Below are positions 1 through 30,558 of a DNA stretch of 64,000 nt, in pieces. The stretch is taken from assembly GCA_016195985.1 (NCBI GenBank), contig JACPYP010000022.1, forward strand, positions 1 to 64,000, read 5' to 3'. The notes under the pieces were generated by a model. That model ran no database searches. It was not told the DNA's origin and saw nothing but the letters and a program-made list of their open reading frames with translations. Every line of letters starts with the position of its first letter. Within the stretch, counting starts at the first letter, position 1. Both the position numbers and the translations under genes were made by a program. This DNA comes from Acidobacteriota bacterium (GTDB lineage: Bacteria; Acidobacteriota; Holophagae; Holophagales; Holophagaceae).

Positions 1-391
1 GACCTGACCCCGATCGTTTCACTCCCGCTCCCTCGCTTCGCTCGATCACGGAGGGGTCATCGTCCCCGCAGTTCGCAATGAGGATCTTGGTCACGGACAT
101 GGGCTATTCCCTCTCATGGGTGGTGAACCGCTGGCCTGCGCGGGGACCTGACCCCGATCGTTCCACTCCCGCTCCCTCGCTTCGCTCGATCACGGAGGGG
201 TCATCGTCCCCGCGGTTCGCAATGAGGATCTTGGTCACGGACATGGACTATTCCCTCTCATGGGTCGTAAACCACTGGCCTGCGCGGGGACCTGACCCCG
301 ATCGTTTCACTCCCGCTCCCTCGCTTCGCTCGATCACGGAGGGGTCATCGTCCCCGCAATTCGCAATGAGGATCTTGGTCACAGGCATGGG
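1..391. repeat. 144-bp tandem direct repeat, about 2.7 copies, running off the left window edge
   Basis: 'gacctgaccccgatcgtt...' begins at 1, 145 and 289 with near-identical following sequence; identity ends at about 391. Confidence 0.95.
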
Positions 392-19786: not shown

Positions 19787-19823
19787 GCGGGGTCCGTTCG
19801 AAAACGAGAGGAGAAACTGATTA

Positions 19824-19902
19824 CCACCAAGACACCAAGTCACCAAGAACTGCTCGAGGACCCGTTTGTTTTTCTTTCTTGGTGCCTTTGTGTCTTGGTG
19901 GC
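19824..19902. repeat. CACCAAGA-type palindromic intergenic repeat, copy A1
   Basis: CCACCAAGACACCAAGTCACCAAGAA / TTCTTGGTGCCTTTGTGTCTTGGTGG: 26-bp arms, 2 mismatches. Confidence 0.9.
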
Positions 19903-20926: not shown

Positions 20927-21015
20927 TGGGTCCACAGATTTCACAGATTAAAAAAAGCGGATTGGTTGGATGCGGCGGGACAGGTCCTGCATTTGCATCT
21001 GTGTGAATCTGTGGA
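20927..21015. repeat. CACAGATT-type palindromic intergenic repeat, copy B1
   Basis: TCCACAGATTTCACAGATT ... CATCTGTGTGAATCTGTGGA. Confidence 0.8.
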
Positions 21016-21024
21016 ATCTGCGGA

Positions 21025-22278
21025 CTAGAAGTCCTTGGCCACGGCGGCTGCGGCCTGCTTGAAGCGCGCCAGCTCGGCGTCGCCGTGGGCGGCGCTGAGG
21101 AAGGCCACTTCGTAGCCGCTGGGAGGCAGGTACACGCCCTGGGCCAGCATGGCCTTGTGCAGGCGGTTGAAGGATCCGATGGCCTCGCCTTTCACCGCGT
21201 CGCTGCGGCGGACGCTGTCCTGGAACAGGGGCCAGAGCAGGCTGCCGTAGCGGGGGCAATGGAGGCCGGGGATGGCCTCGAAAGCCGCCGCCCATTTCTC
21301 CGCATTGGCTTCCAGCCCCGCATAGAAGGCCGGGGTCAGCTTCTCCATGGTGGCCAGGCCCGCGGCCATGGCCACGGGATTGCCCGACAGCGTGCCCGCC
21401 TGGTAGACCGGGCCGTCGGGCGCGACCACGCCCATGATGTCCTTGCGCCCGCCGTAGAGGCCCACGGGCATGCCGCCGCCGATGATCTTGCCGTAGGTGG
21501 CCATGTCCGGCGTGATGCCGAGGCGCTCCGCCGCGCCGCCCGGGGCCACGCGGAAACCGCTGATGACCTCGTCGAAGATGAGGACCACGCCGTGCTGCGT
21601 GCAGAGTTCCCGCAGGCGCTTGAGGAACTCGGGGCGCTGCAGCAGCAGGCCGTTGTTGGCGGGAATGGGCTCGATGATGGCCGCGGCCAGCTGGCCGCCG
21701 ATCTCGGCGAAAGTGCGCTCCAGGGTGTCCATGTCATCGAGGGTCACCACGGAGGTCAGCTCGGCGATGCCCTTGGGCACGCCGGCGCTGGTGGGGGCGC
21801 CGAAGGTGGCGAGGCCCGAGCCCGCCTTCACCAGCAGGCCGTCGCTGTGGCCGTGGTAGCAGCCCTCGAACTTGAGGATGCGGTCGCGCCCGGTGAACCC
21901 GCGAGCCGCGCGGAGCGCCGACATCACGGCCTCCGTGCCCGACGAGACGAAGCGCATCTTCTCGATGAAGGGCACCATCTCCTTGATGCGCCGGGCCAGC
22001 GAAAGCTCGCGGCGGCTGGGAGCACCGAAGGTGAGACCTTCCTGCATGGCCTCGCTCACCGCCGCCAGGATGTCGGCGTGGGCGTGGCCCAGGATCAGCG
22101 GACCCCAGGACATGCAGAGATCCAGGAAGCGTGCGCCATCCTCATCCTCGAACCAGGCCCCGCTGGCCTTCTTGAAGAATTTGGGCGTGCCGCCCACGGC
22201 GCGGAACGCGCGCACAGGGCTGGAGACACCACCGGGAAAGTGGGTCAGGGCTTCTTGGAACAGGGTTTCGTTGCTCAT
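21025..22278 (-). CDS. hemL: glutamate-1-semialdehyde 2,1-aminomutase
   Basis: FPGGVSSPVRAFRAVGGTPKF, VSSGTEAVMSALRAARGFTGRDRILKFEGCYHGH. Confidence 0.97.
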   Translation of the reverse strand: MSNETLFQEALTHFPGGVSSPVRAFRAVGGTPKFFKKASGAWFEDEDGARFLDLCMSWGPLILGHAHADILAAVSEAMQEGLTFGAPSRRELSLARRIKEMVPFIEKMRFVSSGTEAVMSALRAARGFTGRDRILKFEGCYHGHSDGLLVKAGSGLATFGAPTSAGVPKGIAELTSVVTLDDMDTLERTFAEIGGQLAAAIIEPIPANNGLLLQRPEFLKRLRELCTQHGVVLIFDEVISGFRVAPGGAAERLGITPDMATYGKIIGGGMPVGLYGGRKDIMGVVAPDGPVYQAGTLSGNPVAMAAGLATMEKLTPAFYAGLEANAEKWAAAFEAIPGLHCPRYGSLLWPLFQDSVRRSDAVKGEAIGSFNRLHKAMLAQGVYLPPSGYEVAFLSAAHGDAELARFKQAAAAVAKDF

Positions 22279-22296: not shown

Positions 22297-22392
22297 GGGT
22301 CCACAGATTTCACAGATTCAAAAGAAGCGGGGACGAAGGCAACATCGAAGATTTCATCAGTTCAATCGGTGTGAATCTGTGAAACCTGTGGA
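22297..22392. repeat. CACAGATT-type palindromic intergenic repeat, copy B2
   Basis: TGGGTCCACAGATTTCACAGATT shared with copy B1; opposing GGTGTGAATCTGTGAAACCTGTGGA. Confidence 0.8.
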
Positions 22393-27467: not shown

Positions 27468-29096
27468 ATGCCCCTGGATTCCCCCTCTGGCCTCCTCCGC
27501 CACGGCCTCTGCTGGGCCCTTCTTTGCGGTCCCCTGGCCGCCCAGGCTCCCGTCCTCCAGGATGAGGCCGAGCGCCTGCGGCAAGCTTTCGCGCATTGGG
27601 GCGAGGGGGACCCTGCCCCGTTGGACAAGGCCGCCGGCCAAGCTCCGGCCTTTACGGGCACCGCGGCCCTCGTGGCCATCGCGCCAGGCGGCACGGCACG
27701 CACCCCGCTGCTGGACGGCGGGGGCTTGGGCACGGTCCTGAACGGGCCTGGCCTGGCCTGGCAGCTGGGCTGGTCCCGCGGCGGCTTCGAGATGGACACC
27801 ACGTTCCTCGCCGTCCATGGCAGCGGAGGGCAGGCCGACCGGCTGCGCCTCTTCCAGGGGCGCCTCGGATACCGATCCCAGGGCGGGTGGCGCTTCGCCC
27901 TGGAACGCATGCCCTTCCAATGGGGGTACGGCATCACCGGCGGGTACCTGTACGGAACTTCCGCCCGGGCCTTTCCCAGGGCCGTGGTGGAAACGCCCGC
28001 CGTGGATGTTTCCGTCTTCGGCGTTCCCCTGGGCAATTGGGGCTTCGAGGCTTTTCTGGGGAAGCTGGGAGCCGATCAGCAGGTGCCGGATTGGGCGGCC
28101 GACCGGGAGCAGAGCCTGGCGGTCGCACGGACCCAGGGCGGAATCATCCAGGGCGCCTTCCAGGGCGGCTACCGCCTGAAGGCCCGCTTCGGATCGAGCA
28201 TGGAGATGAATTTCGCCATCTCCTCGCAGTGGGGCGGCATCGGGGCCGATGGGCGCAAGATCACGGATGGATACCGCTTCAGGGACTACCTAGGCGCCTT
28301 TTTCGGTGGCCAGAACATCGCCGTCAGCGAGGCCTCGGGCGACCCCGCCAACCCCAGCGGCGGACTGACCAAGAGCCAGAGCAACGGCATCGCCAATGTC
28401 GAGATGCGCTTCCGCCCCGCCTGGCTGGCGGAACTGGCCGGCGCCAAGGGCGCCTTCGCCTACATCAGCCGCGGAGGCGAGAACGTGAACTGGCAGTGGA
28501 AGGACTTCCTCCACCACCCCCTGCGGTCGATCTGGCACGACGTGAAGGCGGACGCGACCACCTCGCCACGCGCCGTCTGGCACAAGGATCGCCGCGAGGC
28601 CTCGCCCAACCTGCAATGGCCCAACGAAGCTGTGGGCTTGCAGTTCAGCTGGGAGCACGCCGACCTGGGCCTCGAGTATCTGGACAACCGCACCGGCGAA
28701 AGGCCCGGCACCGGCTACCAGACCTACTCGCACTGGTTCTTCCTGGCGGGGCATTCCAATGGCGGCGACCCCATGGGCGACGCCTTCGGCGGCAGCATCA
28801 TCAGCCGCAGCGTGTCCTGGGGCTGGAAGGAGCGTGACTGGTCCATCCGCGGCATCTTCACGGATGGCCTCCGGGTCTTCCGGGACGACCTCGCCCAATG
28901 GCAGGCGGTCCACCCAGGCTTCTCCCCCATGCCGAACCATTTCCAGCATGTGGAGCTGCAGGGCAGATTCACCTTCGCCGAGAAGTGGAGCGCGGGTGCC
29001 AGCCTCGCCTACCAGCGCGAGCAGAAGCTGCACTTCGAGCCGGGTCTCAACGCCCGCGGCACCAATGCCGTGGTGGCCCTCGCCCGGCGGTTCTGA
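27468..29096 (+). CDS. Wzi-like capsule-assembly outer-membrane beta-barrel protein
   Basis: signal peptide; FALERMPFQWGYGITGGYLYGTSARAFPR; paralog at 41064. Confidence 0.7.
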   Translation: MPLDSPSGLLRHGLCWALLCGPLAAQAPVLQDEAERLRQAFAHWGEGDPAPLDKAAGQAPAFTGTAALVAIAPGGTARTPLLDGGGLGTVLNGPGLAWQLGWSRGGFEMDTTFLAVHGSGGQADRLRLFQGRLGYRSQGGWRFALERMPFQWGYGITGGYLYGTSARAFPRAVVETPAVDVSVFGVPLGNWGFEAFLGKLGADQQVPDWAADREQSLAVARTQGGIIQGAFQGGYRLKARFGSSMEMNFAISSQWGGIGADGRKITDGYRFRDYLGAFFGGQNIAVSEASGDPANPSGGLTKSQSNGIANVEMRFRPAWLAELAGAKGAFAYISRGGENVNWQWKDFLHHPLRSIWHDVKADATTSPRAVWHKDRREASPNLQWPNEAVGLQFSWEHADLGLEYLDNRTGERPGTGYQTYSHWFFLAGHSNGGDPMGDAFGGSIISRSVSWGWKERDWSIRGIFTDGLRVFRDDLAQWQAVHPGFSPMPNHFQHVELQGRFTFAEKWSAGASLAYQREQKLHFEPGLNARGTNAVVALARRF

Positions 29097-29100
29097 TGCC

Positions 29101-29631
29101 GATTTGAATTCAAAAGATAAGGAACACCACCAAGACGCCAAGACACCAAGAAAAACAAGAGCCACTGTTCATGCCGTTCTTGGTGCCTTGGCGTCTTGGT
29201 GGTGAAAGTCCTTTTTCGATTGGACTGAACCCAACTTGGCATGAATCCGTGCCCATTCGTTGAATCCGTGGTTTCACTTGGTCCTGTGAACACGGATCCA
29301 CACGAATAAAAGAAAGGCGCCCGCTCCATCCCCTTCATCCCGGATAAACATCTTTTTTTCTTTTGCCAGGATGGAGGGGATGAAGGGGATAAGGATAAAG
29401 GCCGCTTGGGGCCCAGGAACCTTTGTCTGTGGTTCTCACGGCTTTTCAAAAAGCGGGTTGGCCACGGATGACACGGATTCACACGGATTCACACGGATTT
29501 GAATTCAAAAGATAAGGAACACCACCAAGACGCCAAGACACTAAGAAAAACAAGAGCCGCTGTTCATGCCGTTCTTGATGCCTTGGTGGTGAAAATCCTT
29601 TTCTATTGGATTGAACGCAGCTTGGTATATG
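29101..29631. repeat. composite intergenic repeat island: two about 130-bp direct copies (A2, A3) of a CACCAAGA palindrome plus CACGGATT- and GGGGATGAA-type palindromes
   Basis: A2 arms 29125-29152/29177-29204 (28 bp, 1 mismatch); A3 29520-29547/29572-29591; C-type arms 29328-29340/29378-29390; CACGGATTCA tandem at about 29464-29500. Confidence 0.9.
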
Positions 29632-30558
29632 TCAGTCGTCGACGGTGAGGATGGGCACGATTCCCAACTCCGAGGCCAAGCCCACCTTCGCCTCGTCCTT
29701 CACCCAGGGGAAGTAGTCCTTGAGCGCCAGGGGGAACCGCTCCTGGGCCAGCATGGCCCGCCAGCGTTCCGGCGCGCCCTGGTAGCCGTAATAGGTTTCC
29801 TTGAACCTGAGCTGGGCCTCGATGACGTAGGCCAGGTGCTGGAACACCAGGCCCGCCTCCTCGGTCTCCCGGTGGGAAAAGACGGATGGGTCCGTGGGTT
29901 TGAAGGGAGGCCGGAGGCGCTTGCCGCGGAGCATCCGCGGCCATTGCCGCCACTGTTCGAAGCGGTGGAAGAGGCCCGGTGGCTCGTGGGATTCCCAGTG
30001 GTCGCCAGGCTCGAAGCGCCAGGTGCGCAGCCACTCGTAGGAACTGTTGTTGCCGTAGGTGTCGCGGCTGGTCAGCACGTGGTTGGGGCCCACGAAGAAC
30101 TGGCACCAGTAGTAGGCGGCCCGCTTGGCGGGATGGGCGATGAAGAGCTCGCGGGTGCGGATGATCTGCTCCGCAGTCCACAGCTCGTCCGCATCTACCT
30201 GCCAGAGCAGGCATTCTTCCTGGATGTTCGCCAGGGGCGCGCGGACCATGGCCAGCTTGCCGTCCCAGAAGGTTCCGGGGGGACGGCGGTAGACCGTCAC
30301 TTGGCCCGGGTGGGCCGCAGCGATCTCGTCCAGGTAGGCGCTGGTGCCGTCGTTGCTGCGGCCCTGGTCGTGGAAGGCCCCCTCGATGCGGCCACCGGCG
30401 GCCACGCTCCACGCGGTGTCGTGCTTAAGTTCGGCCACGCCCTCGACCACATGCCAATGCCAGCGGAACGGCAGCTGCTTGAAAAGTTCCAGATGGTAAC
30501 GGATGAAGGGCTCGCCGTTGAGGACGATGGTGAAGAAGTGGATGGGCAGCGCGCTCAT
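29632..30558 (-). CDS. glycosyltransferase-like protein (GT-A fold, family uncertain)
   Basis: [40 protein letters not shown]. Confidence 0.6.

Follow-up and report, generated by a model that had tools for sequence, protein, structure and literature searches.

The window, a stretch of 64,000 nucleotides of Acidobacteriota DNA, contains an island of about 560 bp (29095-29658) that was inserted recently and is made of small mobile DNA palindromes, and the search for its relatives suggests a class of mobile element that has received little notice. Two convergent genes face the island with their 3' ends, on one side a Wzi-like ORF of 542 aa that ends at 29096, on the other a minus-strand ORF whose last codon is at about 29632. 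In G020, the nearest congener with 87% identity of protein, homology of 84-89% ends at 29094 and restarts at 29658, while in another (G061) it ends at 29096 and restarts at 29672. The same pair of genes is separated by 44 bp in the first genome and 27 bp in the second, with the island absent from both. Given the break in homology and the short junctions in the sisters, the whole island is an insertion, private to the window's genome.

The island has the plan A-B-A, in which two copies of a CACCAAGA palindrome (A) enclose one CACGGATT/ATCCCCTTC unit (B). The first A, on the plus strand at 29101-29244, reads GATTTGAATTCAAAAGATAAGGAACACC...CTTGGTGGTGAAAGTCCTTTT...AACTTGGCATGA. Its 28-nt arms are 96% complementary, the left one (29125-29152) made of the words CACCAAGA/CGCCAAGA and the right one (29177-29204) of their reverse complements, and about 24 and 40 nt outside the arms are conserved as the element's outer ends. 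The second A (29496-29628, plus strand) lacks part of the right arm. An earlier note had described two direct copies of about 130 bp, and so they are, with 97% identity over a 91-nt core (29101-29191 and 29496-29586), except that the unit measures about 144 bp. Element B (29241-29490, plus strand) carries CACGGATT words at both ends: on the left a block of inverted words, GAATCCGTG...CACGGATCC (29243-29312), on the right the tandem CACGGATTCA words (29463-29499). Opposing AATCCGTG words stand at 29244 and 29263. Within B is an ATCCCC hairpin, ATCCCCTTCATCCC/GGGATGAAGGGGAT (29328-29390), whose 14-nt arms (29328-29341 and 29377-29390) are 100% complementary. The tandem and opposing words, the hairpin, and the design common to all of them, short words in tandem followed by their reverse complement, are thus as the note had them. 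Fold z-scores at the island are -9.9 (at the arms of the first A), -4.6, -3.8, and -4.7, values that none of the dinucleotide shuffles matched.

The note had also asked whether the words recur, and they do. BLAST with element A returns 105 pieces from its own, Geothrix-like genome, which merge by eye into about 40 palindrome sites, and it is matched in 36 of 60 relatives. The 22-mer ACCAAGACACCAAGACACCAAG, three words long, has exact matches in at least 117 stretches of DNA from other genomes, which cover more than 15 phyla and include Geothrix records; among the matches listed, most are palindromes, AACCACCAAGACACCAAG...CTTGGTGTCTTGGTGGT, at gene junctions. The order A-B-A itself recurs elsewhere in the genome, where the B between A copies is 70-89% identical to that of the island, and a composite, B placed between two direct copies of A, is the best explanation of the arrangement. 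One might suppose instead that the island is chance low-complexity sequence, the product of replication slippage only, or an artefact of assembly. Slippage can indeed give rise to tandem words, but it is too much to ask that it produce one 22-mer and one palindrome plan in many unrelated genomes, copies 97% identical at a distance of some 400 bp, in an order that recurs in the genome, and orthologous sites that are empty. Recurrence refutes this idea, which I give next to no weight.

Palindromes of the same style are found elsewhere in the window. In a minus-strand haem cluster (hemN, hemE, hemL, and hemB, assigned by eye) a word palindrome stands at three consecutive junctions: a bare CACCAAGA palindrome that lacks the outer ends of A between the hemN-like and hemE-like genes (19823-19902), and palindromes of the word CACAGATT between hemE and hemL (20930-21025) and between hemL and hemB (22300-22392). 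The start of the contig, window positions 1-390, holds a 144-bp tandem repeat of 2.7 copies with 95% matches. In many copies of A, the loop contains a nested hairpin, CTCGGTATCGCCTGCGGCGATACACGAGACAAAAAGAAA (e.g. L005, L008, and L022; also L128 and L151); it is seen as well in Geothrix fuzhouensis and other Holophagaceae, and is absent from the copies in the window.

Some word palindromes enclose a gene. The own genome has six PF13366/GxxExxY genes, all within or beside word palindromes. Five sit between two inverted word arms, each gene with its own word, while the sixth (L197, G000:C30:305686-306024) lies just downstream of three tandem word palindromes and has no right arm; the CACGGATT palindrome upstream of it is in tandem triplicate with a period of 128 bp. 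In the full unit the GxxExxY gene stands between an arm and its inverted counterpart, the arm comprising 2-4 words in tandem, each 8-10 nt long and beginning (A)ACC(A/G)C, and in the cross-phylum loci read, GxxExxY-type ORFs begin inside palindrome loops. One of the own-genome genes, L198, bears exactly the A word CACCAAGA (present also at L217). The words CACGGATG/CACGGATT are found at L202 and L197, ATCCCCTTC, the word of the hairpin in B, flanks a GxxExxY gene at L229 in a congener, and L199 has the CACAGATT of the haem cluster. The remark in the note that no protein explains the island therefore holds for the island itself and fails beyond it: all three of its word families have a gene-bearing counterpart around a GxxExxY gene.

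How general is this architecture? The upstream flank of a gene was locally aligned with the reverse complement of its downstream flank, and inverted arms were scored as present at 31 or above, a threshold to be compared with the scores of control genes (median 19, 95th percentile 26). Arms were found at 80 of 91 GxxExxY loci pooled, as against 5 of 276 control genes (Fisher p ~7e-62). The separate sets, each taking the best-scoring PF13366 locus per genome, gave 34 of 35 in the genus (where some orthologous sites are counted repeatedly), 24 of 30 in other phyla, and 22 of 26 in a sample of Acidobacteriota not picked by their words. Inverted word arms are a general attribute of these genes.

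The GxxExxY protein is small and has strong matches to TIGR04256 and PF13366. A set of motifs, GxxE...D...ExK...QxxxY, is nearly invariant in 63 aligned proteins (the catalytic D in 62, ExK and QxxxY in all 63), and these are the motifs of RecB/Cas4-type PD-(D/E)XK nucleases. The ratio dN/dS among orthologues of the nuclease is 0.06-0.18, so that purifying selection maintains the protein. No solved structure of the family was found, and an AlphaFold model (pLDDT 52) was too poor for use. A phage or plasmid vehicle was rejected, there being no match to the family in 50,697 phage records, no relative found in IMG/VR, and only 7 distant matches on plasmids; so was a defence system, as judged by the lack of a PADLOC match.

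Nuclease and word are related to each other. Across 40 independent insertion sites, the similarity of the words rises with the identity of the proteins (Mantel r = 0.41, reached in 0 of 5000 permutations), and the correlation is 0.49 when only cross-phylum pairs are considered. The clades of the nuclease fall into groups with words of the types CACCAAG/CACAAAG, CGGAGA/CAGAGA, and GATGAAC. Between argS and pyrG, in several species, CACC has changed to CGCC in concert, through the tandem words and in both arms. Judged by these comparisons the nuclease and its word travel together, although correlation alone is no proof that the one reads the other.

There is then the evidence of sites occupied and sites empty. 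At the ftsA-ftsZ junction, 24 of 30 congeners have an empty junction of 40-61 nt and 5 have a GxxExxY unit of 415-558 nt with CACGGAG words (the marker for the end of ftsA was not found in the one remaining). The argS-pyrG junction measures 39-62 nt where it is empty, and where occupied it holds a unit of 397-582 nt whose words are CACCAAGA or CGCCAAGA; in G029 and G061, gene-less palindromes or remnants stand at the junction where others have the gene-bearing element. The elements L205 and L207 match the ftsA-ftsZ elements from arm to arm at 75-83% identity with flanks that are unrelated. Identity so confined implies that the arm-bounded block has moved. The intergenic flanks at empty sites are too diverged to fix the exact ends of an element, and hence to reveal a target-site duplication.

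The gene-less palindromes are connected to the gene-bearing elements by more than their words. An inner motif that is not a word, TTTTGCAG|TTCTTGGTG, is common to gene-less palindromes in Geothrix and to gene-bearing elements, and by a looser test allowing 4 mismatches it is found at 46 of 176 word arms and in 21 of 243 background sequences. Sharing of inner sequence gives the gene-less palindromes the look of derivatives by internal deletion. Among 36 congeners the number of A-like matches rises with the count of PF13366 genes (rho = 0.41, p = 0.014), yet in some of them (G002, G007, and G012) no PF13366 gene was detected and there are 4-10 A-like matches nonetheless.

I propose that the island is made of non-autonomous, MITE-like members of a class of mobile element whose full members bear a GxxExxY gene, an interpretation that seems to me probable, including its inferred element, movement of the palindromes by the nuclease. 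In the mechanism envisioned, the nuclease would bind the arms at its own words, with one word for each subunit or each helical turn, and would cut at or near the hairpin or arm. The cut would provoke recombination or replicative repair, in the course of which the arm-bounded DNA would be copied into the 3' ends of genes. Palindromes lacking a gene, A and B of the window among them, would be moved in trans. Slippage and template switching would keep the tandem words of the inverted arms alike, so that a change in a word could reach every copy simultaneously and the nuclease could drift along with its word. One observation sits awkwardly with this account of A: its conserved outer ends are absent from L198, the gene-bearing copy with the same word, and A may therefore be mobilised by something else or have been put together later as a composite.

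It is possible to imagine that the hairpins matter as RNA, as bidirectional terminators, stabilisers of mRNA, or IVS-like hairpins excised by RNase III, retained at the 3' ends of genes for that reason. The predicted hairpins are very stable, and copies of A lie at convergent junctions in 8 cases and at divergent junctions in none (p = 0.008). There is moreover the precedent of the intervening sequences of 23S rRNA, in which an ORF of PF05635 lies between inverted repeats and the whole is excised by RNase III (PMC4990558). However, avoidance of promoters is expected also if insertions there are purged by purifying selection, so the distribution of A can be read as selection against insertions that do harm or as use as terminators. 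Were the pairing of RNA under selection, mismatched arm positions in gene-bearing elements ought to favour G.T over A.C on the gene-sense strand, and the counts are 62 and 54 (p = 0.52), no sign of such selection. Insertions are absent from the same junctions in sister genomes. A known structured RNA was rejected outright, since no family of Rfam 15 attains its gathering cut-off; the best match has 26.7 bits where 87 are required. A role in RNA as the reason for the palindromes thus strikes me as quite unlikely, and the sequences suggest that the palindrome more likely matters as DNA.

The MITE-like reading has a stronger competitor in a view that reverses the order of events: the palindromes are older and spread by some other means, and the GxxExxY gene came second, as a parasite able to recognise the words and insert in the loops, much as homing genes do in introns. 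Some free-standing homing endonucleases are PD-(D/E)XK enzymes, and such genes often run in the direction of their neighbours. GxxExxY genes do as well, at 13 of the 15 independent sites in the genus that could be classified. Like them, too, free-standing homing endonucleases are small nuclease genes lodged between genes of an operon, present in one relative and absent in another, but they come without word-built inverted arms and without dozens of gene-less palindromes. That gene-less palindromes here far outnumber those with genes, and that G029 and G061 keep gene-less remnants at argS-pyrG, are both as this view would have them.

It draws most from a second family. Genes of PF05635 (four-helix IVP), a family unrelated to the GxxExxY nuclease, also lie inside word-built inverted arms, at 11 of 16 loci in the genus and 20 of 29 in other phyla. 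Such arms may therefore not need the GxxExxY nuclease. The words differ in length, 7 (or 8) nt around PF05635 and 8, 9, or 10 nt around GxxExxY, and two unrelated proteins that follow one plan with words of different length are the strongest reason to retain the homing view. The same difference cuts the other way, since it makes the arms specific to the protein that they enclose. Against a late arrival of the gene it may further be said that gene and palindrome are missing together in most sister genomes, and that in one case arms and gene form a single block shared between unrelated sites. On balance I consider the homing view improbable, though less so than a role in RNA. As to PF05635 itself, the genes outside rRNA (L396-L425 and L232-L249) have arms of 7-nt words such as AGCTATC, AGTCTTC, TAGACAG, and GGAAACT, among others, and one WOR-3 genome (G111) has 31 PF05635 matches.

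Of the systems already described, the island and its relatives most resemble, in function, the REP/REPIN palindromes moved by RAYT. REPtrons and the related TIRtrons/TIRYT (Di Nocera et al. 2013, PMC3733652) are likewise dispersed, extragenic, and palindromic; some copies flank a catalytic gene, those without the gene outnumber those with it, and relatives of the enzyme pair with their own type of palindrome. Could the palindromes here simply be REPs, moved by RAYT or another IS200-type (Y1, HUH) transposase? The note had suggested a search for such a partner, and none is present: PF01797 has no match in the own genome (5 of 14 control genomes were matched). The enclosed enzyme is a RecB-like PD-(D/E)XK nuclease, not an HUH enzyme. 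REPs are defined by an unpaired tetranucleotide, GTAG (or CGTC), at the foot of the stem (PMC3733652), but no such tag, in either form, stands at the stem feet of A, where the stem begins at CACCACCAAG, and the arms are built of hypervariable tandem words of 8-10 nt. Movement by a RAYT-like transposase is accordingly a very remote prospect.

By tests of membership the island and its relatives are neither REP/RAYT systems, nor TIRtrons, nor intervening sequences of rRNA. The 23S rRNA intervening sequences share with it a small ORF between terminal inverted repeats, a sporadic distribution, and a proposal of mobility (PMC4990558), but they reside in helices of rRNA, from which RNase III removes them, while the elements described here are at junctions of protein genes, consist of tandem words, and in most cases have a nuclease inside. 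The protein family of their ORF, PF05635, is itself found here in word-built inverted repeats outside rRNA. MITEs of IS elements are also gene-less derivatives that retain a parent's ends and some of its inner sequence. Their parents, however, have DDE or HUH transposases, whereas the elements here have no such parent, and a fixed terminal inverted repeat takes the place of tandem-word palindromes; no target-site duplication has been demonstrated for the latter. A CRISPR array was rejected because the words are contiguous and have inverted arms, in place of regular repeats with unique spacers of similar length.

A broader idea, held tentatively and at somewhat under even odds, is that there exists a cross-phylum class of mobile element whose own inverted ends consist of hypervariable tandem words, recognised by a minimal RecB-like nuclease (GxxExxY), and that clade and word are tied by a code that can be read. 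PF05635 would follow the same plan with 7-nt words, and concerted rewriting of all the words and of both arms would be part of movement. If this is true, it would explain widespread intergenic repeats that lack an explanation (CACCAAGA, CACGGATT, CACGGAGA, ATCCCC, AGCTATC, and the like, in more than 15 phyla), and two common families of hypothetical proteins, GxxExxY and the non-ribosomal four-helix IVP, would gain a role. It would also constitute a new natural code between nuclease and target, in which the element's own ends carry the target word and sequence suffices to predict it, and the three kinds of palindrome in the island would be one phenomenon. In the open-access papers searched no description was found of an association between nuclease and palindrome, no relevant paper on the exact words (CACGGATT is present in PMC4060949 only as an example string), and none on PDDEXK_3 plus a repeat; nor did a paper on GxxExxY among them appear to deal with repeats.

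The enclosed proteins may not be confined to two families. At L098 (2443-2600), in a member of the Holophagaceae, an ORF that by eye resembles an HNH nuclease adjoins a CACCAAGA arm in reversed orientation, possibly a third type of protein carried in word palindromes.
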